In this document: in pieces, positions 11,177 through 25,128 of the stretch
Layout: each line of letters begins with the position of its first letter
How positions within the stretch are numbered: position 1 is the stretch's first letter
Origin: Teredinibacter franksiae
Lineage (GTDB): Bacteria > Pseudomonadota > Gammaproteobacteria > Pseudomonadales > Cellvibrionaceae
Length of the DNA: 64,000 bases
Assembly: GCF_014218805.1 (NCBI RefSeq)
Contig: NZ_JACJUV010000001.1
Span: 3,608,501-3,672,500, forward strand
Direction of reading: 5' to 3'
The notes under the pieces: generated by a model
What the model saw: only the letters and a program-made list of their open reading frames with translations
Database searches by the model: none
Told to the model about the DNA's origin: nothing
Translations under genes and position numbers: made by a program

Positions 11177-11381
11177 GCTGGTTAATATGTGGCCTGCTTC
11201 CGTGGCCGGCTTATTATGTATGTCTTTAGGGCACCTGTATTCTAAAATGTGTCACCGATACTCTTGTTCTGCGTACTCAGCTGGCGTTGATTTGCTATTG
11301 ATCAAAAAATACCTGTCACCTGAATGAGATTAATGTGTAATATGCGCGCCAAAGGTGCTCAGCTTGCTAGGGGAAATAGCT

Positions 11382-12062
11382 ATGAAAATAAAGAATCCGC
11401 TCACTGAGATGTTTGGCCGTTCGCCCATCAAGCCGATGGAAGAACATATCGCTGTAGCCGAATTAGCGGCCAATGAGTTAATTGCCTTCTATGACGCCAG
11501 TGTTATAGAGGACTGGGCTAAGGCCGAGGCCTGCTACAACCGTATCAGTGAAATGGAAGAGCGTGGCGATGAGATGAAAAAGCAGATTCGCCTGCATCTG
11601 CCCAAAAGTCTATTTTTACCTGTACCGCGCTCGGACCTTCTCGACCTGCTGACCAAACAAGACAAATTGACTCACCGCTGCAAAGACATAGCGGGTTTGA
11701 TGCTGGGCCGTAAAATGGTTTTCCCGTCATCACTACGAGAGACTGTGCGTGAATACTTGCAAAGTACCGTGGCAACCGTTGCCCAAGCTCGTAGCGCGAT
11801 TAACGAGCTGGATGAGCTTCTAGAAACCGGCTTTGGCGGTCGTGAGATGGAAGTTGTCGAGAATATGGTTGGCGAACTGGATGTCTTAGAGCAGAGAACC
11901 GATCAGCAGCAAATAGTCATTCGCGCGGGGCTTTTCAGAATTGAATCCGAGCTGCCGCCGGTAGACGTTATCTTTTTCTACCGCATTATCGAGGGGATTG
12001 GCAATTTGGCTGATCGCGCCCAAAAAACCGGCGAACGCTTGCTACAGCTACTCGCACGTTAA
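11382..12062 (+). CDS. DUF47 / TIGR00153 phosphate transport accessory protein (PhoU-like)
   Basis: 226-residue all-helical protein of the TIGR00153/DUF47 family, distantly related to PhoU. Recognisable parts are NPLTEMFGRSPIKPMEEHI at the start, the central KQIRLHLPKSLFLPVPRSDLLDLLTKQDKLTHRCKDIAGL and the C-terminal FFYRIIEGIGNLADRAQKTGERLL. These proteins are nearly always paired with PiT transporters and are thought to regulate them. The ATG at 11382 has AGGGGAAA 8 nt upstream and was preferred to an in-frame ATG at 11355. The PiT gene follows after 47 bp, giving a two-gene operon. Confidence 0.88.
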   Translation: MKIKNPLTEMFGRSPIKPMEEHIAVAELAANELIAFYDASVIEDWAKAEACYNRISEMEERGDEMKKQIRLHLPKSLFLPVPRSDLLDLLTKQDKLTHRCKDIAGLMLGRKMVFPSSLRETVREYLQSTVATVAQARSAINELDELLETGFGGREMEVVENMVGELDVLEQRTDQQQIVIRAGLFRIESELPPVDVIFFYRIIEGIGNLADRAQKTGERLLQLLAR

Positions 12063-12109
12063 ACCATAAGAAAGCTACCACGCTTAGAATTTCGTGAGGA
12101 CAAATTAAC

Positions 12110-13387
12110 ATGTCGATCCTGGCTGACTACGGCACCATCTTGTTGGTGTTGGGATGTATATTTTGTGTGTTTATGGCCTGGGGCGTGGGTGCTAATGATG
12201 TTGCTAACGCAATGGGAACCTCGGTTGGCTCCGGTGCCCTAACGATCAAGCAAGCCATATTTATCGCTATGGTGTTCGAATTCTTAGGGGCCTACTTGGC
12301 CGGTGGTGAGGTTACCTCCACCGTACGCAAAGGCATTATCGACCCGGCAGTAATGGAAACCACACCGCACCTATTGGTTTATGGCATGCTGAGTGCGTTG
12401 CTCGCTGCAGGTGTGTGGTTGGTTATTGCTAGCATCCTCGGTTGGCCGGTTTCTACCACTCATTCAATTGTAGGGGCTATTGTCGGTTTTGCTGCCGTTG
12501 GTATTTCTACTGATATTGTTGCTTGGGGTAAAGTGGGGACAATTGTTGGTAGCTGGGTAGTCTCTCCCGTGCTGGCGGGAAGTCTGTCGTTTCTTCTGTT
12601 CAAGAGTGTGCAATGGCTGATCTTTAATAAAGCGAACCCAGAGCAGGCCGCCCGGCGTTATATTCCTGTCTATATGTTCTTGGTGGGTTTCCTTATTTCT
12701 ATGGTCACGATGGTAAAGGGCCTAAAGCACGTATTAAAAGACAGCGGCTTTAAACTTAGTTACTTTGAAAACATTGGTATTGCCTTCGTGATGGGCCTGA
12801 TTGTAACCGGCATTGGCCTCTACTTTCTGCGTCGTGTTGATACCAGTGAGGCCCCCGACCCCGATAACCGCTTTGCTAATGTTGAAAAAGTGTTCGCTGT
12901 ACTGATGATCTTTACGGCCTGCTCTATGGCATTTGCCCACGGCTCCAATGATGTCGCCAATGCTGTTGGGCCACTCGCGGCGATTGTTAATGTTGTGAAA
13001 TCTGGCGCTATCACCTCTCAATCGTCTATGCCCAGTTGGGTGCTGCTGTTAGGGGGCTTGGGTATTGTGGTGGGTTTGGCCACATACGGTTATCGTGTTA
13101 TCGCCACCATCGGCAGAAAAATTACAGAATTAACGCCAAGCCGAGGCTTTGCGGCTGAGCTGGGTGCAGCGGGCACCGTGGTATTTGCGTCGGGCATGGG
13201 CTTACCTATTTCCACTACGCACACGTTGGTTGGAGCCGTATTGGGCGTAGGCTTGGCTCGCGGTATTGGCGCGCTCAATCTAGGGGTTATCGGCTCCATA
13301 TTTATGTCTTGGATTGTGACCTTACCGGCCGGTGCTGGCTTAGCAATATTCTTCTTTTATGTGTTCAGGGCAATTTTTGGCGCGTAA
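12110..13387 (+). CDS. pit: Low-affinity inorganic phosphate transporter, PiT family
   Basis: 425 residues, about ten to eleven membrane segments. The two PiT signature repeats are clear: GANDVANAMGTSVGSGAL near residue 27 and GSNDVANAVGPLAAIVN near residue 280. Each is followed further on by a GxPxSTTH motif (GWPVSTTHSIVGAI, GLPISTTHTLVGAV). The family moves phosphate (as a metal-phosphate complex in some members) with protons or sodium across the inner membrane. Cotranscribed with the DUF47 gene upstream. Confidence 0.93.
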   Translation: MSILADYGTILLVLGCIFCVFMAWGVGANDVANAMGTSVGSGALTIKQAIFIAMVFEFLGAYLAGGEVTSTVRKGIIDPAVMETTPHLLVYGMLSALLAAGVWLVIASILGWPVSTTHSIVGAIVGFAAVGISTDIVAWGKVGTIVGSWVVSPVLAGSLSFLLFKSVQWLIFNKANPEQAARRYIPVYMFLVGFLISMVTMVKGLKHVLKDSGFKLSYFENIGIAFVMGLIVTGIGLYFLRRVDTSEAPDPDNRFANVEKVFAVLMIFTACSMAFAHGSNDVANAVGPLAAIVNVVKSGAITSQSSMPSWVLLLGGLGIVVGLATYGYRVIATIGRKITELTPSRGFAAELGAAGTVVFASGMGLPISTTHTLVGAVLGVGLARGIGALNLGVIGSIFMSWIVTLPAGAGLAIFFFYVFRAIFGA

Positions 13388-13576
13388 TAAATCTGCGCCA
13401 GGCGTATCCATTAACATATTTATCATTATCTAGGCATAGGCCTTTTTAGCTTTAAGGGCTGCAGCAAGAAGAAATTCGGCTGAATAACGCCCTGCTTACG
13501 CTATATTTCTTGTGTTAAAACAATAATGGCGGTAATTTTATACCCGTTTGCATACTGCTCACGGATAGCCAGTTAA

Positions 13577-14479
13577 ATGACCGTCGATACCGACTGCTCT
13601 CAAACCAAGCGCGTGTTTATATCCTACAGTCACAGGGATATGGATGCTCGTCGCTTTATCAGCAACAACTTGGTCGCCCAGGGTGTTGAGGTGGACGTGG
13701 ATGAAGAGTCGCTAGAAGCTGGTGAAGGCTTATCCAGCTCCCTCCGAGTTTTAATTTCTCAATCAGACTTTACCGTTTGCCTTGTGTCTAAGTCGAGCCT
13801 GCAATCTACCTGGGTAATGTGGGAGATTCATCAGGCGCTTGCGCAAGATGGTGATGTTGGCGGCAGTAAGCTCCTACCGTGTTTCCTTGATGACTCTTTC
13901 CAAGATCCGAATGTGATCGATGCAATCGGCGAAAATATTGCAGAAGAAATTAAGCGCATTAACCTGCTTCGAGAAAAAGCCATTGCGGAAAATATGGCCG
14001 ATGATCATTTAAGTGATCGTCGTAATAGCTTAATCCGTTTTCAAAACGACCTACCTCAGCTGGTGGCCAAATTATCGGCTATGAATGTTGTTGATCTTAC
14101 GTCTGCAAATTTTGATTCGGGCTTTCGTCAGCTCTACAAAAAAATTACCGGTCGAGATGAGCTAACTGTCAGCTTAATGGATGTAAATGATGTCGCTCAC
14201 GGCGACTATCAGTCCCGCATGGATATTATTTTCGACGAGATTAATAATAATCACACCAAGGAAGCCGCCAAAAAGGCAATGGACCTGGTACGTGAATTTT
14301 TGTCTGGAGCGAAAGCGCTGCTGCGCAAGTTGGGGTTGCTGTGTGCTTCAATTGTTCGCCTGGAAGAAGCCTTTAACGAGGGGAGGATTGCCTTCGACGA
14401 GTACGATAAACGATTACAGCAGTCGGCCATGGAAATTATGGATTTACTGCCGGAAAGCCCAGCGCTAACAGGATTTTAA
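13577..14479 (+). CDS. TIR-domain protein with C-terminal helical region
   Basis: 300 residues. Residues ~11-150 are a TIR domain: KRVFISYSHRDMDARRF (strand A and box 1), EVDVDEESLEAGEG (BB region), and LVSKSSLQSTWVMWEIHQAL. In the last, Glu83 occupies the place of the catalytic glutamate of NAD-cleaving TIRs such as SARM1. After a long helical linker comes a C-terminal helical module (residues ~210-295, KKAMDLVREFLSGAKALLRKLG and RLEEAFNEGRIAFDEYDKRL) that resembles adaptor regions described for conflict-system proteins; this likeness is by eye. First gene of a three-gene operon; the ABC gene starts 10 bp after its stop. Likely role (inference): NADase or signalling component of a defence or stress system. 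A purely scaffolding role is also possible. Confidence 0.85.
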   Translation: MTVDTDCSQTKRVFISYSHRDMDARRFISNNLVAQGVEVDVDEESLEAGEGLSSSLRVLISQSDFTVCLVSKSSLQSTWVMWEIHQALAQDGDVGGSKLLPCFLDDSFQDPNVIDAIGENIAEEIKRINLLREKAIAENMADDHLSDRRNSLIRFQNDLPQLVAKLSAMNVVDLTSANFDSGFRQLYKKITGRDELTVSLMDVNDVAHGDYQSRMDIIFDEINNNHTKEAAKKAMDLVREFLSGAKALLRKLGLLCASIVRLEEAFNEGRIAFDEYDKRLQQSAMEIMDLLPESPALTGF

Positions 14480-14489
14480 GGACTTCTGA

Positions 14490-15737
14490 ATGAATGATAT
14501 TCGGCAACGAGCAGACAAGTTATTAGGTGATCTCTCCGAGCGAAAGCGAGGTTATCAGAAGCGTTTGGTCGATTTCGTGCGAGAGTATTCTGGTGATCGT
14601 AGTTTGGAAAAAATCGTCATTAAATCCAATTTTGGGTTGAATGTCAGTGATCTTGAAAAAAGTCAGTCGGCGGAAGATGATATTCGAAACATCGTGAACC
14701 AAGTTGTCCAAGGCTATTCCCGAGATAAAATTCGAGAAGTGCGTGGTCAGCGCCTCAAAAATGAAGCGCCAGCGCTTAAGTCTTTGATGGAAGAAAAAAA
14801 GGTCGCGTTTTCCTGTAAAGGTCTCACTAAGAATTTTGGGGGGAAGTTTACACTTTCACCCATTTCTCTGGAATTGCGTAAAGGTGACATTACTGCAGTC
14901 GTTGGTGAAAATGCCAATGGTAAAACAACTTTCTTTAATCTTGTGGCGGGGTTAATTAAGCCTAGCGCCGGTGAGTTAAGTTATCCTTGCCTTACCAGTA
15001 AATTGGCTTCCGATGTAGACTGGGTAGAAGTAAAAAACAAAATTGCTTATGTTCCCCAAGAGTTACCCAGTTGGTATGGCGACCTGGAGGCGAATCTTCA
15101 ATATGAAGCGGCTTCCCACGGTGTAACAGGCGAAGAGAATTGTCGTGAAGTTGATTTCGTTATTGATAGGTTAGGTTTGCGAGATCATCTGAAAACACGC
15201 TGGAAAAAGCTTTCGGGGGGAACTAAATTTCGGTTTGCTTTGGCGAAGGCATTGGTATGGAAGCCAGAATTGATGATTCTGGATGAGCCGTTGGCCAATC
15301 TGGATGTGAATGCGCAATTATCGGTACTGCAAGATATAAAAAGCCTTGCTACCAGTGTCGTGCACCCCATTGCTGTGTTTATTAGCTCTCAGCATATTCA
15401 TGAAGTTGAGTCTATTGCCGATAATATGCTTTTTCTTCGCTATGGAACCCCTGTTTTTAATGACAATGTTAAGCGCCTGGGATTGAATCGAACGGCCAAC
15501 GTATTTGAAATAGGCTCTAGTTTAGCGCCCGGCGTATTTTCCAAAATCTTTCCCGAAGTAATGCCTATAGCCATTGATTACAATGGTATGCACTACGTGG
15601 TGACATCGGATCTGGATATTACGGCAGAGACTATTTTACAATTACTCATTAATGCCGGAGCACCACCGCACTACTTTCGTGATATTAGCCGATCATCAAA
15701 ACGTTTATTTAATCAGCGCGCTGTGCAGGCAGCATAG
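14490..15737 (+). CDS. ABC transporter-type ATPase with N-terminal helical extension
   Basis: 415 residues. Residues 1-105 are a charged helical region not found in ordinary ABC ATPases (QRADKLLGDLSERKRGYQKR). Residues ~110-320 are a complete ABC ATPase: Walker A GENANGKTT near 139-147, Q-loop VPQELP, signature LSGGTKFR near 240, Walker B LMILDEPLANLD near 261, and H-loop SSQHIHEVE near 300. A C-terminal ~95-residue tail follows, as in ABC-2-type exporter ATPases. All catalytic residues are present, so it should hydrolyse ATP. It lies between a TIR gene and a polytopic membrane protein gene (2-bp gap), suggesting an ATPase-permease pair gated by or coupled to the TIR protein. Confidence 0.87.
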   Translation: MNDIRQRADKLLGDLSERKRGYQKRLVDFVREYSGDRSLEKIVIKSNFGLNVSDLEKSQSAEDDIRNIVNQVVQGYSRDKIREVRGQRLKNEAPALKSLMEEKKVAFSCKGLTKNFGGKFTLSPISLELRKGDITAVVGENANGKTTFFNLVAGLIKPSAGELSYPCLTSKLASDVDWVEVKNKIAYVPQELPSWYGDLEANLQYEAASHGVTGEENCREVDFVIDRLGLRDHLKTRWKKLSGGTKFRFALAKALVWKPELMILDEPLANLDVNAQLSVLQDIKSLATSVVHPIAVFISSQHIHEVESIADNMLFLRYGTPVFNDNVKRLGLNRTANVFEIGSSLAPGVFSKIFPEVMPIAIDYNGMHYVVTSDLDITAETILQLLINAGAPPHYFRDISRSSKRLFNQRAVQAA

Positions 15738-15739
15738 TT

Positions 15740-17680
15740 ATGGCTGTGTCTTTTCGTCGGCTACTACTATTGTCTAACCCACTATCGCAATGGCTTCGAA
15801 CCTCTTTCCCTCTGGTTTGGCGTATCCGGATTTTCTACCCGCTGTTCCTTGCTAGCTTAGTTGTGCTGGGGTTCTATTGGTATGAATTGCCCGTTACACG
15901 GCTCAGCGATGTGCCTTACTGGGTGTACCTAGAAAAACAACTCAATGCTCGCCAGTTTTCCTGGCTGATTGGTCTTGGTGTTTTGAGTTGTATCTGGGTA
16001 TTTCAGGTTTTCAAATATCCGCTTTTGGATGGCCGCGCGAGCCGGAATATGATTACCTGGGTGGTGGCGTTATTGTTGGCGCTAATTTTATTTGGTAGCC
16101 CATTTGCTCATGTACATAACCGTTTGATGAATATGTCTGCGCTTTATGACGAGAGTGCAGTTGTGGAAGATAAGCGTGTGTTAGCGGCTATGTGCAGCAG
16201 TAAATTACAGCTTGCGGACACGGAGTACCAGGGCTTTTTTGAGCGCTGGCAACAGTATCGAGGGGCTACGGCTGAGCTAAATTTTCAGACGCTCTACTCT
16301 GGCCAGAAAGGTGAGGGATTATTGTTCGAGGGTGGTTCGGACCAGTTGCCTTTGGACGCTATATCGCGTGAATTGGCAGGGCGAGGGAAAAAAGGTGGTT
16401 CAGAACAAGGTCAATGGGGGGAGCGAGAGGCGGCAGTCTTATTTCAGTTTTGCGCTAAATATAACCCTCAGGTTGTGGCTAAGTTGAAACGCGCAGAGCC
16501 CGATACTGTGTTGCGGTTTGAATATTTAGGTGAAGGTGTTGCCGGCTGGCATTTCAGTGCGGGTGTTAGCGAGCAGATTGAAACACTTGAACACGCATAT
16601 CATTATCGGCAGCTAGTTCTGAAAGGCGGTTTACTTGCGTTTCTCGTCTATCACCCACTTCTGGGTGTGTATTTCCTTGCCTCACTATCACTTAGTATCC
16701 TTGTTGTTGTTATCTCCAACCGTGGATTTGGCTCCTTTGCTGTCTGCCAAGAATTTATTGCCTACCGGTACTCACAGTTTAGAAAAAAGCTGAACTTAAC
16801 TCGGCTCGAATATTATTTCAGTCAAAGGATGCCCCGTATGTGGGCGATGGGTAATCATAACCTGATACCCGACCTTATTCTTGGGGCCGTCGCGGGTTTT
16901 TTGATTCCTTTGTTAATGCTGTTTTTAACAGAAGACGAAGATGTAAAAATGATGGGGGTATTCTTCGGCGCATTCATGGCCATGCTGCTTTATAGCGCTT
17001 ACCGTTGTGTACGATTGAGGCGATACCATGTCCCAATGGCAACCTACCCCGAAGCGTTCGTGCAGGTTCTTAGCGCGCTTGTCTTTCAGCTGCCTTTTTA
17101 TGTGTCGTTAATTTTAGTGTCTCAGTTGGGCTGGTGGTTACACGAAGACGTCTCTAGCGAGCTGACCGGTTTGGATGGCGCCGCGATTTTTTCGGCAATT
17201 GTCGGTTGGGCTGTGTTGTGGTCTGTGGTGGTGATGTTTGTTTCCAGCTTTAGTCGGGATGTTGTATCTTTGATTTTGGTGGTAATAATTCAGCCATTGA
17301 TTATTGCAATGCTTATCGGTGTGGAGGTTGAGCCAGGCGATACAGCTAGTTACGGTTTGTTTTTGCTGATTTTGTGTATGCTGTCTGGGTTTTTACCAGT
17401 GTGTAATCGCTTTCACAAATGGATAGTATTAATTTTTCTTGCGCAATTAAATCTAATGATCAGTTTTGCCTTGTTTGGTGATGACAACACTTACAGCCTG
17501 ACTAATATGGTTGAATCTATTTTGCCCGAAGTTATGGGTGAGTTGGAGTCTCGCTGGGGTTACGAGCACTATCAGGCCCTCTTCTTTGCTCTTAATCCTC
17601 TGGTTACTATTGTGATTTGGTTGCCGGTGGCAGCAGGTATGTTGCGACGTATTTATGTGTTTGAGTCGCGTCCAATTTAG
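15740..17680 (+). CDS. Polytopic membrane protein, probable partner of the ABC ATPase
   Basis: 646 residues. About three hydrophobic segments occur in the first 125 residues (IFYPLFLASLVVLGFYWY, FSWLIGLGVLSCIWVFQVF, ITWVVALLLALILFG). Then comes a ~170-residue soluble, probably extracytoplasmic domain (residues ~125-290) and some eight further membrane segments to the C-terminus. The arrangement fits an ABC-2-like permease with a large insert, but I recognise no named family. The gene starts 2 bp after the ABC gene, so translation is likely coupled. It ends convergently with the 17732 gene. Role as a permease or as a membrane effector is inferred from context. Confidence 0.75.
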   Translation: MAVSFRRLLLLSNPLSQWLRTSFPLVWRIRIFYPLFLASLVVLGFYWYELPVTRLSDVPYWVYLEKQLNARQFSWLIGLGVLSCIWVFQVFKYPLLDGRASRNMITWVVALLLALILFGSPFAHVHNRLMNMSALYDESAVVEDKRVLAAMCSSKLQLADTEYQGFFERWQQYRGATAELNFQTLYSGQKGEGLLFEGGSDQLPLDAISRELAGRGKKGGSEQGQWGEREAAVLFQFCAKYNPQVVAKLKRAEPDTVLRFEYLGEGVAGWHFSAGVSEQIETLEHAYHYRQLVLKGGLLAFLVYHPLLGVYFLASLSLSILVVVISNRGFGSFAVCQEFIAYRYSQFRKKLNLTRLEYYFSQRMPRMWAMGNHNLIPDLILGAVAGFLIPLLMLFLTEDEDVKMMGVFFGAFMAMLLYSAYRCVRLRRYHVPMATYPEAFVQVLSALVFQLPFYVSLILVSQLGWWLHEDVSSELTGLDGAAIFSAIVGWAVLWSVVVMFVSSFSRDVVSLILVVIIQPLIIAMLIGVEVEPGDTASYGLFLLILCMLSGFLPVCNRFHKWIVLIFLAQLNLMISFALFGDDNTYSLTNMVESILPEVMGELESRWGYEHYQALFFALNPLVTIVIWLPVAAGMLRRIYVFESRPI

Positions 17681-17731
17681 TTCTACAGAGGTGAATTCAA
17701 TTGTAATAAATTGGGTTTACCAAAAACTAGG

Positions 17732-19072
17732 TTAACCCTCAGACACGACAATAGAGAAAGCTGCTCGTTGTACGCCATTTTCTAGACGAAATAAAAATTG
17801 ATTTCTGCCTTTTTTTAAGGTGATTCTTCTGCGACCTTCACTCACCATCCACACCTTTTGTGCGTTGGAACTTTGCCAAACAAGAATGTCGTTTATCCAA
17901 AGCTTGGATTGGTCGTCACTGCCAATATTAAGCCAGACATTCTGCTCGCTATCGCTTAAGACCTCTGTGTAAGCATAATAGATAGCGAAGTCAGTGAATT
18001 CTGGTGGGATAATCGGTAGATGATCGTATTCTATATGTTGCCATTTTATCAGCCTGTTGTTGTCGCCGATGTACATTGCATCTAAATCAACACCTGTTTC
18101 CGGGGCGAAGCGCGTGTGTAAATTCGCTCGATCTTTGTTGGGGTAGGGGCCAATAAAATACCAGGAATCCAAAATTAACCATTGGGTTTTTTCACCGTTG
18201 CTGTCGAGTTTTCGCGAAAAAAGAAATCGTCTATCCTGTCGATTATTGGGCGGCACTTTCAGCTGTTTGCGCTTTGATGGACTTTCGCCCTTGTCTGCGT
18301 CTAGCTCTGGCGATAGAAAAGGAGTCGCGTGATAGTAGCGCTGCATTTCTGACACTAGATCTTGCCGGTTACCGCGAGACAAATTATTAAAGTGCTGTTC
18401 AACGGCGAGCGGGTTGTTGGTGTCATAGGGCGCTGAGCCACCGCTGTTGTCTTTGCTCTGCGACTGAATGTTATGGCCTTCTTGTTTTGCCTGTTCAGAC
18501 ATTTGTATTTTATCGAAAATTGTTCGTGCTTGGCGTTGATTAATGGCCGTTTTTTGTACCATCTCTTCTGCTGTGGGTTTGTGCGCTTGCTTTTCGCTAA
18601 TACTATTCTGTTCTTTCTTTTTAGTTGTCTCGTTGGTTTCGGGTGTTTCGTTGCCGGGCTCAGCGCTACGTTGTTCTTCTTGGGGTAATTGTTTTAGCTT
18701 TTCCTGCAAATAGGTGTTCTCAATTGTTCTAATATCGGCGAGCAGCTCCTCAGATTCTGTGTACAGTTGCTCTATTGTTTTATTTTCGGCTGCACCCTTC
18801 TCAAATTCGGTGATCTGATTGTTGTTGTGGGCGAGTGCATCGAGGTTTTTTTTGATGTGCTCCATGTCGTCAATACGCGATTGCATCGCTTTTTTGTAAC
18901 TGTCGTGGGTGTAATGAAGGGCTTCTACGTGTTCTGCTGCGCTAACGGTGTTCGGCGTTAGGTGCTCAAGGTTAGTTGCCACAAAATAGATGGCCGCGGC
19001 ATGCAGATACACGGAAATGACCCAGTAGGGATTCTTATTCTTAGACGGTTTTACAGGTTTAGTACTCCACAT
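17732..19072 (-). CDS. TonB-position membrane-anchored protein with C-terminal beta-sandwich-like domain
   Basis: 446 residues. A short cytoplasmic N-terminus and one membrane segment (YWVISVYLHAAAIYFVATNL, residues ~17-36) are followed by a long charged coiled-coil/low-complexity region (residues ~45-230, including IEQLYTESEELLADIRTIENTYLQEKLKQL and many Glu/Lys/Gln). The last ~165 residues (from FLFSRKL) hold WLILDSWYFIGPYPN and VWLNIGSDDQSKLWINDILVW, which look like jelly-roll carbohydrate-binding or PA14-like folds. The gene overlaps exbD by 14 bp and occupies the TonB position after exbB-exbD, but no TonB C-terminal domain is visible. Likely (inference) a PMF-driven envelope protein that reaches through the periplasm. 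Substrate unknown. Confidence 0.7.
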   Translation of the reverse strand: MWSTKPVKPSKNKNPYWVISVYLHAAAIYFVATNLEHLTPNTVSAAEHVEALHYTHDSYKKAMQSRIDDMEHIKKNLDALAHNNNQITEFEKGAAENKTIEQLYTESEELLADIRTIENTYLQEKLKQLPQEEQRSAEPGNETPETNETTKKKEQNSISEKQAHKPTAEEMVQKTAINQRQARTIFDKIQMSEQAKQEGHNIQSQSKDNSGGSAPYDTNNPLAVEQHFNNLSRGNRQDLVSEMQRYYHATPFLSPELDADKGESPSKRKQLKVPPNNRQDRRFLFSRKLDSNGEKTQWLILDSWYFIGPYPNKDRANLHTRFAPETGVDLDAMYIGDNNRLIKWQHIEYDHLPIIPPEFTDFAIYYAYTEVLSDSEQNVWLNIGSDDQSKLWINDILVWQSSNAQKVWMVSEGRRRITLKKGRNQFLFRLENGVQRAAFSIVVSEG

Positions 19073-19496
19073 CAGAGGCTGCCCGAATGCTAATATTTCG
19101 CAGGCCTTCGAATTCGCATAGATCTATTAGATGAACGATATGCTGTAAAGGCGTGTTGCGGTCACCGTCAATGCGAATATTTTGCTGCGGATTTTTCTCT
19201 GCGATGGCCTTTAGGTTTACGTGTAGTTCAGAGGTGTTAATGCGCTGATTATTGAGGAAGATATGCCCCCTCCTATTGATAGCAATAACGGTAGTGGATG
19301 CTTTGTGGTGGAGGGCTCCTAGCGCAGCCGCCGAACTGGGTAGCTGAATCGATAGCTCTTCAATGGGGTGATCGTCTTGTTTTTGCTTTTCGAAGGTGGT
19401 GGCAACGAGAAAGAAAATAAGTAGAAGGAATATACAGTCAAGTAATGGAGCTAGGTTGGGCTCGAGGTTTTCCTGGTCGTCCAGATCAACCCTCAT
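19059..19496 (-). CDS. ExbD/TolR family proton-channel subunit
   Basis: 145 residues. A short N-terminal tail leads into one membrane helix (APLLDCIFLLLIFFLVATTF) carrying the conserved Asp of ExbD/TolR (LLDCIF), then a periplasmic domain with the strand pattern TTVIAINRRGHIFLNNQRI and QQNIRIDGDRNTPLQHIVHLIDLCEFEGLRNISI typical of the family. Together with ExbB it forms a proton-driven stator. I chose the ATG at 19496, which overlaps the exbB end by 11 bp; a TTG at 19514 would add six residues. Confidence 0.87.
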   Translation of the reverse strand: MRVDLDDQENLEPNLAPLLDCIFLLLIFFLVATTFEKQKQDDHPIEELSIQLPSSAAALGALHHKASTTVIAINRRGHIFLNNQRINTSELHVNLKAIAEKNPQQNIRIDGDRNTPLQHIVHLIDLCEFEGLRNISIRAASDVEY

Positions 19497-20178
19497 CGTT
19501 GTGCCCCCCGGCAAACCAGTCGCTGGTTAACTGGTTTATTTCCTCTTCCAGAGCGATGCCGTAAAGTACTGTACGGTTCTTAAAGTAGTGGTGAAACCCC
19601 AGTGCGGGCAGTGCTACCGTAAGGCCTGCGGCTGTTGTTAGTAGAGCTTTGTAAATACCGTCGGCCAGAAGTGAAGCGTCGCCTATAGTTCCAGACTCGG
19701 CAACGACATAAAAGGCTTCGATCATACCAATAACCGTACCCAGCAAGCCTGCAAGTGGTGCGATAGTAGCAACGACGGCTAACGGGTAGGCGCGTTGCAT
19801 ATGTTTGCGCAGCTCCATTGATGCAATATCGCCAGCGCCAGTGGAGATAATGTTTAGGCTGTGTTTTCTGTGTCGGTGAATAAAGGCCAGCACCTTCGAT
19901 AGGGTGCTGTTGTCGGAGTTACACAGGTCTGAAATGGCGCTGTGTTGACCCTGTTGCCAGAGGGCGTCAACCCTTGCGGTAAGGTTAGCGGGAACAACAT
20001 ATTTTTTTTGTAGTTGAGAAAAACGTTCGATCACCACTGCTGCAGCAAGAATGGATAGGCAGAAGATAACCAAACCGGTAATGCCAAACAGGCTGAGGGC
20101 TTTGCTGGCGTCTAGGTCGAAAGCGAAAGCGGGGGCGGAGAAAAAAAGGAAAAAGGCGGGCACGGTTCGGTGCAGCAT
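19486..20178 (-). CDS. ExbB/TolQ/MotA family proton-channel protein
   Basis: 230 residues. A possible signal-like hydrophobic start (TVPAFFLFFSAPAFAF) and a first membrane helix (LFGITGLVIFCLSILAAAVVIERF) precede a cytoplasmic region. Then come the paired membrane helices with the family signature APLAGLLGTVIGMIEAF and LADGIYKALLTTAAGLTVALPALGFHHYF. This is the stator that couples proton flow to work by a TonB-like partner. The three genes 20178-17732 overlap one another and form an operon convergent with the TIR-ABC operon. ExbD and the third gene follow directly. Confidence 0.9.
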   Translation of the reverse strand: MLHRTVPAFFLFFSAPAFAFDLDASKALSLFGITGLVIFCLSILAAAVVIERFSQLQKKYVVPANLTARVDALWQQGQHSAISDLCNSDNSTLSKVLAFIHRHRKHSLNIISTGAGDIASMELRKHMQRAYPLAVVATIAPLAGLLGTVIGMIEAFYVVAESGTIGDASLLADGIYKALLTTAAGLTVALPALGFHHYFKNRTVLYGIALEEEINQLTSDWFAGGHNDEG

Positions 20179-20498
20179 GGGGTTGGATACTCCGTTATCA
20201 CGTTAGTGCAAGCGACGATTGTAGGCTGAGTGGTAATGCCGAATCAAATGTACTACATGTGTTAAGCGTTATCTTGCCTATGCTCGAGCAGGTAAAGCGT
20301 GATGAGGTTGTCGTTAATACGCGCCAAATTCCTGTCGAAGGCCTTGCAATATAAACAGTGTTAACATATATTTGCACTGTAAATGAACGCTGTGCATATT
20401 TGGTTGCGGCCTTCGTTAGAGCGCACTTAATAGGGTGCACATACAGTTTTCGAATCTGGGTCTATCGCCCGGTTCACTGCAGGAAAGGAGTTCATGTT
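20179..20498. other. 320-bp divergent intergenic region
   Basis: Lies between the exbB-like operon (minus) and the RND operon (plus) and must hold promoters for both. I see no convincing gene or named regulator site. An upstream extension of the RND frame from 20358 is not supported, as it is not family-like. Confidence 0.5.
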
Positions 20499-22976
20499 AT
20501 GAATCGATTCAGCCTTGGCTGGGCCAGTAAAATTGTTGAATACCGCAAATGGGTGTTGGCGGTGACCGCGTTATGTATTTTTGCCGCGCCACTCTCGTTT
20601 AATCGTTTACACCACGACAATTCCAACGAAAGTTATTTTGTTGAAAATGATCCAAACTTACAGGCATTCGATCGCCTAGTGGATCTATTTGGCGATCCGA
20701 ATTACCTGCTGGTAGGCGTTGAAGCACGCGAACAGGATAGGGATCTTTTCAATGTTGAAACGATCACTATGATCGACGAGATCAGTAATTTTCTTGAAGA
20801 TCATCGCCATATCACCCAGATTCGTTCATTAAGTGAGTACCAGTACACTCATGATGATAATGGCATGATGGCAACCGACGACCTCTTTGAGTATGTGGAA
20901 GATTTAGAGCAACAGCCAGAAATATTGGATGATGCTCGAGGTGTTATGGCGACAGAGCAGTTGGCACTGGAAGCATTGATTACACCGGATTTTAGACACA
21001 CACAAATCGTCGCCCGCGCGGTTTATTTACCCGGTGAAAATGTCCACAACGTAGAGCTGGTGAATGAACTGCTCGCCTTTATTGTAGAAAATGGCTATCG
21101 CGAACAGGGTTTCGAGCTTCACTTATCGGGCATGCCGGTAATAGGTGAGCGTTTTGAAACGTTGACACAGCGAGATATGGCCTGGATCAACCCGGTAATG
21201 GGTGTGGTTATGCTGGTTATCCTGTTTGTTATTTTTCGGTCGTTTTTTGCCATGGCCGTACCCATTGTGGTTATTATTGCCACCATGCTGCTGGCCACCA
21301 GTATTCAGGGGTGGCTCAAGTTTCCCTTTACGGCGGTTAACTCCGCTTTAATTCCCACTGTAATTATTTTGTGTATTGGAACCTGCGTACATGTGCTGGT
21401 GGAATTTTTTCAATTCCGCTTTGCGGGCCATGAGCCGAAGGTGGCGGCCAAAGAAGCTGTTAGCGACCTGTTTTTTGCCGTGTTGTTTACCTGTGTTACC
21501 ACGGCACTGGGTTTTATTGCCCTTTCGGTAACGGAGTTAAAGCCTGTGCGCGAATTTGCATTGCTAGCGGCACTCGCGCCCATGCTGATTTTTCTGCTGT
21601 CGATGACCACGCTACCCGCTATCCTCAGCTACGTCCCCTGGGTGCCGCGCAACAAGCGTAAGCAACTCGAAAGCGGAAGTGAGAGCTTGGAAGATATTCT
21701 TACGCAGGAAACTGTGTCTAAAAAATCGCCCATGCTTTGGTTAACGCACCACATTCCAGTGTTTACTTTACGCTATCGAAAGCCGCTTGCTGTAGTGGGC
21801 GTACTGATTACCGTGTTCAGCTTCTACAGTATTTCTCATATTCGGGTTGATTCGAATATTGTCAATTATTTTAAGAAAGACAGCTGGATGAACCAAGATC
21901 TTTTCTATTTTAACGACAATTTTAAAGGCATTACCAATTTAGAGGTAGTGGTTGATACGGGGGAAGAAGGCGGTATTAAAAACCCTGAAATTCTCCAGCG
22001 TATCGATGCTATGCAAACGTGGCTGCGTGCATTTGATGAGACAGGAAAGCCAACATCGATTATTGACTTTTTTAAACAAATAAATCAGTCGCTAAACGAA
22101 GACAATCCGGATTTCTTTCAATTGCCGACAAGCCGAGAAATGGCAGCGCAATTTTTGCTGTTGTACGAAAATACCGGCCCCAATGAAGACTTGAGCGATC
22201 TGAAGGATTTTAATGAGCAGTTTTTACGTGTGCAGATCCCCGTTCTGAATATGGATGAAGTCGATACTACGCAATTTATAGAAAGAATTAATCAGGGCCT
22301 CGAACAGCAATTTGCTGATTTGACGATAGATCTTACCGGAAACCTGATAATGAACAACGCACAGAACCGCTATGTTAACAATGGAATGTTCCAGTCATTC
22401 GGTATTGCGATTGTTGCCATAGGGTTGTGTTTTATTCTGCTTTTTCGTTCGTTTAAGTATGGCACCATCGCGCTGGCACCGAGTATTGTTCCGGTCATTT
22501 TAACGGGTGGGCTAATATCCTACGCAGGTGTTGCGATGGATTTAGGCACAATGATTGTAGGGGCGATGACCATTGGTATAGCCGTTGATGATGCTATTCA
22601 TTTAATGAGTCGTTATCTGCTCATGCGCCGTCGTGGCTATAACGTTCATGAAGCTGTCCAGTTTTCGATGAATAGCTCGGGAAGAGCGGTGGTGTTAACC
22701 TCCATTATATTGGTTACAGGCTTCTCGGTGATGTTACTTGGGTCATTTGTGTCGTACATCTATGTAGGGCTTTTCTCTGCAATGATTATGTTGTTTGCGC
22801 TTCTTGGAGACATTATTTTTATGCCCGCGTTACTGTATTTGGTCGATGGGGATAAAAGCACGATTGCGGCTGTATTGAATAGGGCGTCCAGCGAAGGTGA
22901 AAGCCGGGGTAAAGCTAAGGCGCCAATAGCCCAGCATTCATCTGCGGTTGTAACAGACAGAAATACGACTATATAA
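20499..22976 (+). CDS. RND/MMPL-family exporter
   Basis: 825 residues in two homologous halves, each with one membrane helix, a large periplasmic loop and about five helices: the RND superfamily of predicted exporters (COG1033). Start MNRFSLGWASKIVEYRKWVL; second half carries LGTMIVGAMTIGIAVDDAIHLMSRYL, with the GIxVDDxIH motif of MMPL proteins involved in proton transport, and a matching helix in the first half (IILCIGTCVHVLVEFFQF). Shorter than AcrB-type pumps and near the size of hopanoid/lipid transporter HpnN. The ATG at 20499 has AGGAAAGGAG 8 nt upstream. Followed by a LolA-like protein and an outer-membrane barrel, which suggests lipid or other hydrophobic cargo moved from the inner to the outer membrane. 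Confidence 0.88.
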   Translation: MNRFSLGWASKIVEYRKWVLAVTALCIFAAPLSFNRLHHDNSNESYFVENDPNLQAFDRLVDLFGDPNYLLVGVEAREQDRDLFNVETITMIDEISNFLEDHRHITQIRSLSEYQYTHDDNGMMATDDLFEYVEDLEQQPEILDDARGVMATEQLALEALITPDFRHTQIVARAVYLPGENVHNVELVNELLAFIVENGYREQGFELHLSGMPVIGERFETLTQRDMAWINPVMGVVMLVILFVIFRSFFAMAVPIVVIIATMLLATSIQGWLKFPFTAVNSALIPTVIILCIGTCVHVLVEFFQFRFAGHEPKVAAKEAVSDLFFAVLFTCVTTALGFIALSVTELKPVREFALLAALAPMLIFLLSMTTLPAILSYVPWVPRNKRKQLESGSESLEDILTQETVSKKSPMLWLTHHIPVFTLRYRKPLAVVGVLITVFSFYSISHIRVDSNIVNYFKKDSWMNQDLFYFNDNFKGITNLEVVVDTGEEGGIKNPEILQRIDAMQTWLRAFDETGKPTSIIDFFKQINQSLNEDNPDFFQLPTSREMAAQFLLLYENTGPNEDLSDLKDFNEQFLRVQIPVLNMDEVDTTQFIERINQGLEQQFADLTIDLTGNLIMNNAQNRYVNNGMFQSFGIAIVAIGLCFILLFRSFKYGTIALAPSIVPVILTGGLISYAGVAMDLGTMIVGAMTIGIAVDDAIHLMSRYLLMRRRGYNVHEAVQFSMNSSGRAVVLTSIILVTGFSVMLLGSFVSYIYVGLFSAMIMLFALLGDIIFMPALLYLVDGDKSTIAAVLNRASSEGESRGKAKAPIAQHSSAVVTDRNTTI

Positions 22977-22989
22977 GGAGTGGTTTAAC

Positions 22990-23778
22990 GTGAAACATAT
23001 ACTAGCAGCGACTGTGTTTATTTGGGGTGCGGTTTCGGCTCATGCACAAACGGCCGACGACATAATGAAAAAGGTGGACGATCGCTACACGGGGGATACC
23101 AGCACGTCGGATGCAACACTGGTGTTGATCGACAAGAAAGATCGCCAGCGGGTACGAGAGCTCAGCCTTTATTCGATAGAAAAAGACGATGTTGAAAAAT
23201 CGATTATATTTTTTCGCTCGCCGTCTGATGTGAAGAATACATCGTATATGTCGTTTGACTGGAAAGCCGAAGCGAAAGAGGATGATTCTTGGTTATATCT
23301 GCCTGCATTGCAGAAGGTTCGTCGTGTTGCAGCGTCGGATGAGTCTGGTTCTTTTATGGGTAGTGATTTTGCGTATGTTGATATTAATGGTACAGACTAC
23401 GAAGATTTTGATTACACCTTGGAGAATGAAAGTGAGCCTGTCGATGGTCACGATTGTTGGGTTGTTAAGTCGATACCGAAAAATGAGGCCGTAATTAAAG
23501 AAACGGGTTATACGGAATCGGTTTCTTGGGTGCGCAAAGACAACTACATGGTTGTGAAAGCGGTTATCCAAGTGAAAAAAGGTAAACGAATCAAATACTT
23601 TGCAGCAAAAGATATTGAAAAAATACAGGGTGTATGGACAGCGCAAACTTTACAAATGGTGACTACTCGTAGAGGTAAGCGTGAGCACAGTAGTGTGTTT
23701 AAAGTGCATAATTTGAAGTACAACCAAGGTGTAGATGAATCAATGTTCGATACTCAGGCGATGCAGCGGGGTTTGTAG
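22990..23778 (+). CDS. LolA-like outer-membrane lipoprotein-sorting protein (COG2834)
   Basis: 262 residues from a GTG start with AAGGAG 9 nt upstream. A signal peptide (ILAAATVFIWGAVSAHA) precedes a LolA-like half-barrel domain. Recognisable is the sequence DIMKKVDDRYTGDTSTSDATLVLID, then SIIFFRSPSDVKNTSYMSFD and DDSWLYLPALQKVRRV, a pattern typical of COG2834 proteins that accompany RND/MMPL genes. The family binds lipids or acyl groups in the periplasm. It sits 13 bp after the RND gene and 3 bp before the barrel gene. Confidence 0.87.
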   Translation: MKHILAATVFIWGAVSAHAQTADDIMKKVDDRYTGDTSTSDATLVLIDKKDRQRVRELSLYSIEKDDVEKSIIFFRSPSDVKNTSYMSFDWKAEAKEDDSWLYLPALQKVRRVAASDESGSFMGSDFAYVDINGTDYEDFDYTLENESEPVDGHDCWVVKSIPKNEAVIKETGYTESVSWVRKDNYMVVKAVIQVKKGKRIKYFAAKDIEKIQGVWTAQTLQMVTTRRGKREHSSVFKVHNLKYNQGVDESMFDTQAMQRGL

Positions 23779-23781
23779 TCG

Positions 23782-25128
23782 ATGCCGCAATTAAAAAACG
23801 CCGTATGGGCTATCGGGTTTCTTGCCTGTACAGCCGTGGCTAACGAAGACTTCTTCGATAGTGTTGAAGTTGAACTCGATAACGAAACAGAGCAAGATTC
23901 GACCATATTGTCTCATCGTGGTTATGTCCAGCTTATCGGCAAATACGGCTTGCAGGACCCTGACCCCAACTTTCCTTTTGCGCGAGACCGGGCCGCGCTT
24001 GACCGGGTGAGGACGGATGCTTTTATTGAGCTGCGTGGCGAGGCATCGGACAATGTTTACTGGCAGCTTAGCGCTAAAGCAGAACTCGACTGGTTGCAAT
24101 GGCAGCAGGGCGAAAGAGACTGGACGTTGCACCGCGAAGACCTGCGTCTAAAAGATGCGTATTTAGATGCAAGTTTCAACAACGGCCTGTGGTTGCGAGC
24201 GGGTAATCAGGTGCTCGCCTGGGGAGATTCCGAAGGGCTGACGATTACCGATGTGCTTAGCCCGGTAGACTCTCGAGAGCCGGGGCAGGCAGAGCTGCAA
24301 GATTTACGCGAACAAATACCGGCGATCATGGTTTCACTCCCCAGCGTGGGGGGCAAGCTGTCTACGGTCGTCACATACCAGGCTGGCCACAACCTCTACG
24401 CCGACAGTGACCAAGCGTTTTACCCTTATATTGCGCTAGTCGGCAGTGGTGTAACGCTTACCGAGCAGGCGCCTGAGGAGGAGTGGGAGTTGGCGGTGCG
24501 CTGGGAGCGGCAGTTCAATGGTGGTGATGTATCACTTATGGCTGCTGAGGTGAACGATAACGCGTTTGCGGTAAAGGACATTCAGGTTGTCAATGCTACG
24601 CCCTTGGTAACACTGAGCCAAGAGCGTATACGGGTAGCTGGGGCAACGATGAATCGAGTATTTGGCGATTGGTTATTGCGTGCTGAACTCGCACACTACT
24701 GGGATCAACCGGTGGAACTCGGCGGTACGCTTCCGTGGGTAACACAAAACCAGTGGCGCAGTATGGCGGGTATTGAATACGCGGGTATCAATGATCTTAC
24801 GATCACTTATGAGGCTAGTTCAATCTTCGCGCCAGAAGTGGCTTCGGTATCTTTAAACGATACTATTGAAACGCCGCAATGGCAGCTTGGCCATGTTTTC
24901 CGGATGCGTCATACTGCACTTAATGAGCGCTTCACCCATTCGCTGTGGTTAATGGCATTAACCAGTGATGACACTCAGCTGGCTCGGTGGGATATGAGCT
25001 ACCAATTGTCTGACAAGTGGACGCTAGCGCTCGCGGCAATCGGCTACCGTAACCGCAACCCGGCATCCATGCTGTATGCCTTCCGAACGAATGATACGCT
25101 CAACGCTTCGGTAAAATTGAGTTTCTAG
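23782..25128 (+). CDS. Outer-membrane beta-barrel protein (DUF1302-like)
   Basis: 448 residues. A weak signal peptide (MPQLKNAVWAIGFLACTAVAN) is followed by alternating amphipathic strands with aromatic girdles (VYWQLSAKAELDWLQW, NNGLWLRAGNQVLAWGDSEGLTITDVLSPVD), ending in a typical C-terminal Phe (SVKLSF). The RAGNQVLAWGDSEG...DVLSPVD segment is close to what is seen in DUF1302-type barrels that occur with RND and LolA-like partners. It would complete an envelope-spanning route. Last structural gene of the operon; the TetR gene follows after 32 bp. Confidence 0.8.
   Translation: MPQLKNAVWAIGFLACTAVANEDFFDSVEVELDNETEQDSTILSHRGYVQLIGKYGLQDPDPNFPFARDRAALDRVRTDAFIELRGEASDNVYWQLSAKAELDWLQWQQGERDWTLHREDLRLKDAYLDASFNNGLWLRAGNQVLAWGDSEGLTITDVLSPVDSREPGQAELQDLREQIPAIMVSLPSVGGKLSTVVTYQAGHNLYADSDQAFYPYIALVGSGVTLTEQAPEEEWELAVRWERQFNGGDVSLMAAEVNDNAFAVKDIQVVNATPLVTLSQERIRVAGATMNRVFGDWLLRAELAHYWDQPVELGGTLPWVTQNQWRSMAGIEYAGINDLTITYEASSIFAPEVASVSLNDTIETPQWQLGHVFRMRHTALNERFTHSLWLMALTSDDTQLARWDMSYQLSDKWTLALAAIGYRNRNPASMLYAFRTNDTLNASVKLSF

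Follow-up and report, generated by a model that had tools for sequence, protein, structure and literature searches.

In the conflict systems described in the main text of Kaur et al. 2021 (PMC8195603), effector-associated domains (EADs) at protein termini recruit TIR, trypsin and caspase effectors by homotypic contact, and the swapping of effectors around one core via a common adaptor belongs to this published principle. The locus presented here resembles the EAD-coupled systems in the main texts of Kaur et al. 2020 and 2021 (vWA-MoxR ternary, iSTAND, EACC1 and NucA-trypsin) in that a small terminal adaptor appears to be common to a core NTPase and to separate effectors encoded nearby, but its core differs in being made up of an ABC ATPase and a polytopic membrane protein. 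The term 'ABC' is absent from the main texts of PMC8195603, PMC7159879 (Kaur et al. 2020) and PMC10907252, as is 'EAD11' from the main texts of PMC8195603 and PMC7159879, and in the open-licence literature an ABC-EAD system was found in neither titles nor abstracts; we provisionally regard an ABC-type core for EAD systems as undescribed.

Thoeris, SPARTA, TIR-SAVED and other TIR defence systems have in common with the locus a TIR domain predicted to process NAD, whereas the partner genes here encode an ABC ATPase and a membrane protein; Thoeris was rejected, as neither partner is matched by a ThsA model of Pfam or PADLOC. ABC-2-type exporters are similar in their complete ATPase motifs and many-helix partner, and the ABC relatives are named ABC-2 type ATPase by JGI, but the adaptor-like N-terminus, a membrane partner in no searched family and a TIR gene in the operon set the locus apart; as an ABC-2 permease candidate, the membrane protein has no family match in Pfam or NCBIfam and a low-confidence model. 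Finally, the ATPase part of the ABC protein matches mad3 of MADS in PADLOC (E=7.2e-19), a match that looks generic because the same protein matches 189 NCBIfam families, and MADS was rejected, with the TIR and membrane proteins matching no mads model.

The TIR, ABC ATPase and membrane protein genes

The window, the whole stretch of 64,000 nucleotides from Teredinibacter franksiae that was analysed, contains three adjoining genes on the forward strand with operon-like spacing, the TIR and ABC genes lying 10 bp and the ABC and membrane protein genes 2 bp apart, as the first-pass annotation had read them. Their GC contents (46.4, 43.3 and 46.4%, against a mean of 48.3 with an SD of 2.6 for 31 window genes) give no evidence of transfer, since other window genes are equally low.

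The first gene (13577..14479) encodes a TIR protein of 300 aa, with the TIR fold at residues ~8-194 and an EAD11-like helical C-terminus at ~195-300. The Pfam TIR_2 family matches residues 13-112 (E=3.1e-18), and Glu83, noted earlier as intact, aligns with a Glu in the corresponding stretch of the solved TIR structure 7uxr (E=9.8e-4) and is conserved in a sister TIR, 27% identical, from a related locus of the same class (L093). A TIR fold with its catalytic Glu is thereby supported, and NADase is the predicted activity. The structure model was built on two alignment rows (best of five 67.6, others 42.6-50.4), and the fold comparison hardly probes the C-terminus and is uninformative on that part; the best PADLOC matches were restricted to the TIR part. 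A word-based protein search of limited reach returned only the window's own protein, and there was no match in plasmids.

The second gene (14490..15737) encodes the ABC ATPase of 415 aa, in which an EAD11-like N-terminus (~1-106) is followed by the ATPase domain and a family C-terminus. Both the complete motifs and the ~105-residue extension upstream of the ATPase domain that had been claimed for it were confirmed: Pfam ABC_tran matches residues 122-269 (E=1.6e-23), and in an alignment of 38 family members G144/K145, Q190, S242-G243-G244 and D265-E266 do not vary, and H302 hardly does. With the ABC as query, 470 relatives were found at E<=1e-20; among the 120 listed, the best non-self relative has 49% identity at 98% query coverage, and 5/120 carry a precomputed Pfam EAD11 match. 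No match to phage was obtained at E<=1e-40.

The third gene (15740..17680) encodes a polytopic membrane protein of 646 aa. Hydropathy analysis gave 12 hydrophobic segments rather than the roughly 11 helices first proposed, while the large inserted loop was retained (184 residues, 123-306). The loop at 326-378 has 8 K+R and 3 D+E, and because of this charge pattern we suggest that the N-terminus and loop 326-378 are inside and that loop 123-306 is outside, i.e. a predicted periplasmic loop. An N-terminal P-x-x-W element occurs twice, at 24-27 and 365-368. A profile of this N-terminal unit, built from 55 relatives with the window and L093 left out, recognised both halves of the L093 membrane protein (37.0 and 35.6 bits), to which the window protein is homologous (BLAST E 9.5e-5). 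In the window protein itself it recognised the second half, with 13.8 bits (E=0.003; the top of 1000 shuffled second halves reached 5.0 bits as domain); for the first half the best domain scored 12.3 bits and the overall score was -0.4. Two units seem to have been fused in the window protein, because two relatives (L135 and L165) also have two units each and another locus has separate single-unit genes, four of this family lying in series behind one ABC gene (L137:8734-12316). The membrane family members tested have no confident family in Pfam, NCBIfam or PADLOC, the word-based protein search, with its limited reach, returned only the window's own protein, and there was no match in plasmids or viral contigs. 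The predicted structure is of low confidence (pLDDT 47.7, pTM 0.27) and was left out of the fold search.

EAD11-like tails of the TIR and ABC proteins

The helical tails noted earlier on the TIR and ABC proteins held up and could be refined to EAD11-like. When the TIR C-terminus was compared with effector-associated domains, this likeness emerged from custom profiles and family links, but the Pfam cut-off was not reached: Pfam EAD11 gave 0.013 for the TIR tail, below the cut-off, and no match for the ABC tail. A 16-sequence EAD-like profile, consisting of four effector EADs and 12 ABC N-termini and excluding the window, scored the window TIR tail at 17.1 bits and the ABC N-terminus at 11.3 bits, with 0/2000 shuffles as high for both. 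Without four ABC N-termini from loci, the resulting 12-sequence profile gave 19.0 bits (0/2000) and 8.9 bits (1/2000), respectively, and a profile of the four effector EADs failed to separate the window tails (TIR 8.9 bits, 1/2000; ABC -0.3 bits, 337/2000).

In profile-profile comparisons, the 26 ABC N-termini of the window clade matched the five EAD11-annotated ABC N-termini with a probability of 95.8% (E 7.6e-9), and the latter matched the effector EADs with 96.0% (E 3.8e-9; 95.2% without the window TIR). The lone window ABC tail reached 73.9% (E 2.8e-5) with the annotated set, and the lone window TIR tail 51.6% (E 1.5e-4) with the annotated ABC set and 46.4% (E 2e-4) with the other effectors. 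Between the window ABC clade and the effector EADs the probability was 30.9% (E 5e-4), falling to 0.75% once the window TIR was removed, and the direct comparisons were negative, both for the window ABC clade against the lone window TIR tail (0.1%) and for the effector EADs against the lone window ABC tail (0.3%). All controls, four reversed and 40 column-shuffled, stayed below 1%. The two window tails are therefore linked via family members and not directly, given that family comparisons are high and direct ones negative. The window TIR, the window ABC and a stand-alone EAD of L093 have in common a stretch K-x-x-x-D-[LF]-V-R-[DE]-[FY].

The EAD profile was also run on 2773 ORFs from 61 loci, where the non-ABC matches at E<=1 were the four effectors of the profile and two proteins outside it, the window TIR and a caspase (L007), each encoded directly 5' of an ABC gene. 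It scored above 10 bits on 27 of the 61 ABC proteins, the window ABC not among them; it also misses E<=1 in the scan. At family level, core protein and effector of one locus carry the same type of adaptor, as judged from L094 and from the match between the annotated ABC N-termini and the effector EADs, while the L093 ABC protein, with no Pfam EAD11 match, speaks against this. The idea that the two tails are docking partners, voiced in the first-pass annotation, fits the comparative evidence, with both tails being EAD11-like and four further loci pairing the ABC-membrane genes with an EAD-like effector.

The ABC-membrane pair and its effectors in other genomes

The 61 loci compared were the window, three of the same class (L093, L094 and L095), a plasmid locus (L086; L087 was excluded as the same plasmid system), 12 from an 80-locus set in which the remaining 68 loci (E 3e-24 or weaker) were set aside as generic ABC genes, L096, L097, and 42 more. 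In 59/61 a gene with at least five hydrophobic segments lies at most 50 bp behind the ABC gene on the same strand, the exceptions being L138 (contig end) and L174 (73-bp gap), which indicates that the ABC ATPase and membrane protein are a conserved and widespread pair. An EAD-like effector was found in 5/61 loci, namely a TIR protein in the window and L093, a trypsin in L094 and L086, and a caspase in L007, although as the sample is mostly Bacteroidota and does not include the closest relatives P0004-P0019, such counts are not unbiased rates. Effectors thus appear to be swapped around a constant ABC-membrane core.

In L093 the order is EAD-TIR (TIR_2 4.9e-17; EAD11 0.033), stand-alone EAD11 (1.6e-6, 28.4 bits, above the cut-off of 26), ABC and membrane gene, with neighbours overlapping or abutting; its ABC protein has no Pfam EAD11 match and a weak DrrA-type C-terminal match (E=0.014). 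In L094 the ABC gene (EAD11 6e-7, 29.8 bits, above the cut-off of 26) and membrane gene are followed by the trypsin gene (Trypsin_2 3.3e-19; EAD11 0.0095). L086, on a mobilizable plasmid of the cyanobacterium Tolypothrix, has the ABC (EAD11 0.058) and membrane genes and then, on the opposite strand, a 115-aa gene and an EAD11-trypsin gene (EAD11 4.6e-15). The L007 caspase gene (Peptidase_C14 4.5e-7) overlaps the ABC start by 4 bp, and its product has a C-terminus that is EAD-like by custom profile (17.7 bits, 0/2000 shuffles) and is not detected by the four-effector profile; Pfam EAD11 matched nothing in this or 9 further Bacteroidota genomes. Next to the L094 set (11204-18923), three more genes may make up a second conflict system; they encode an ATPase of AAA/NACHT-like type, a trypsin fused to an ATPase, and a subtilase-trypsin protein.

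No EAD-like effector was found by profile in 56/61 loci, including 55/56 of the Bacteroidota loci, so the pair either has another role or functions without an effector; among the five non-Bacteroidota loci only L095 is without one. The neighbours of pair-only loci, some of which were compared with Pfam, often look housekeeping-like by eye. L004 was not counted as effector-coupled, as its papain-like C1 peptidase with DUF4384 has no EAD match; this peptidase, the third gene after the ABC gene, and a 391-aa family-less protein lie behind the pair (L004:9555-12309) and are possibly another effector set, one with no EAD match.

The trio is not a conserved core set: the membrane protein was found in 1/144 genomes of the family, this being the window's own genome, and a variant set is carried by the mobilizable cyanobacterial plasmid. 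The ABC sequence was found in 1/390 genomes of the order (1e-38), and the ABC alignment in 2/369 of the class (1e-70), 3/398 of the phylum (1e-80), 3/247 Bacteroidota (1e-80), 45/395 of one Bacteroidota class (1e-80) and 0/5 other genomes (1e-60), counts which include the own genome where it was in the set and for which mostly 4 to 7 candidates were scored per genome. The plasmid matches of the ABC protein were three records of one system.

A tree of the ABC domain was made with 83 rows (60 loci and 23 proteins; L138 was too short and left out). A supported clade (99/92) comprises 50 loci, none with an EAD-like effector; all five effector-coupled ABC proteins lie outside it, and they are not one group: the window falls with P0005, P0007 and P0008, L093 with P0086 and L086 with P0103, while L094 and L007 sit on long branches whose position is uncertain. 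The N-terminal extension is missing from four effector-less ABC proteins (L005, L153, L165 and L172), and those of L136 and L157 begin near a contig end. We infer that the starting point was an ABC-membrane pair whose helical N-terminus was optional, and that adaptor-bearing effectors joined it more than once; the adaptor may already have been part of a housekeeping ABC-membrane pair by the time effectors gained it.

Possible roles of the trio

Gene order, folds and motifs, the family-level adaptor relationship and effector swapping are all indicated at sequence level, and with a probability of roughly 0.55 we read the trio as an envelope-anchored conflict system, probably of the abortive type, in which, on the best reading, the ABC-membrane complex would sense a cue and activate the TIR NADase by adaptor contact. 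The ABC ATPase and membrane protein would form an ABC-transporter-like complex in the inner membrane, of which the predicted periplasmic loop or the transport cycle might sense, for example, a phage-caused disturbance of the envelope. An ATP-driven change would then expose or cluster the ABC adaptors, which would recruit and oligomerise TIR proteins via EAD-EAD contact; the assembled TIR domains would cleave NAD+ or produce an NAD-derived signal, and growth of the affected cell would stop.

The role in envelope stress that was offered as an alternative from the start would make the exporter-like pair a stress or transport regulator, with the TIR protein as a regulatory or NAD-linked signalling subunit and no part in defence. 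We consider this less likely but keep it because the pair alone is common (45/395 genomes of one Bacteroidota class), and the lack of an EAD-like effector in 55/56 Bacteroidota loci also speaks for it, as does the Omp85/POTRA protein after the pair in two loci (L133:4017-5804 and L134:4168-5937), a hint of an envelope role. It accounts less well for one set being plasmid-borne (L086), for the sporadic occurrence among the window's relatives and for the exchange of TIR, trypsin and caspase as partners, which are the effectors that the main text of PMC8195603 describes in EAD conflict systems. An envelope role may nevertheless be ancestral for the pair, as the effector-less pair occurs in many Bacteroidota genomes.

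In known systems, signals made by TIR proteins gate partner proteins, and an ABC-membrane pair would be apt as a membrane effector; on these points the signal made by the TIR protein could be NAD-derived or of another kind, and the ABC-membrane complex could act as executioner in the form of a gated pore or pump that opens through the adaptor. This order of events seems improbable, as relatives substitute proteases for TIR, which make no such signal, and EADs sitting on the effectors suggest that the effectors are the recruited parts. Least probable of all is that a TIR gene happens to lie ahead of an unrelated ABC-membrane pair and that the tail likeness is a generic helical resemblance, an explanation that gained slightly because the direct comparison of the window tails was negative. 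While the window EAD matches are singly sub-threshold and the protein search gave no close homologues of the TIR or membrane protein, chance does not sit well with gaps of 10 and 2 bp, a homologous EAD-bearing TIR in the same gene order at L093, four further loci with EAD-like effectors and reversed and shuffled controls below 1%, and it was set aside on gene spacing and the L093 gene order.

For the conflict-system reading, a wider proposal is made tentatively and at somewhat less than even odds: an ABC-transporter-like membrane machine would be an immune receptor, a bacterial death-adaptor platform in which an envelope complex takes the place of a cytosolic STAND or MoxR ATPase in sensing invasion and in assembling TIR, trypsin or caspase effectors via an EAD11-type adaptor. 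If this is true, EAD-coupled conflict systems would gain a core of the ABC-transporter type that is anchored in the envelope, and transport or envelope sensing would be tied to bacterial TIR and protease effectors. The proposal would also offer a testable origin for one adaptor family, with EAD11-like N-termini already present on an effector-poor pair common in one Bacteroidota class.

With regard to the surroundings of the trio, the reverse-strand region at 17732-20178 contains ExbB-like and ExbD-like genes (Pfam 4.3e-23 and 6.6e-24) and encodes a 446-aa protein without Pfam family; a search for the downstream flanking gene, that of the 446-aa protein, found it in none of the 7 other genomes of the genus. 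On the forward strand, 20358-25128 encodes consecutive MMPL exporter, LolA-like and DUF1302 proteins, which resemble an envelope lipid-transport set.
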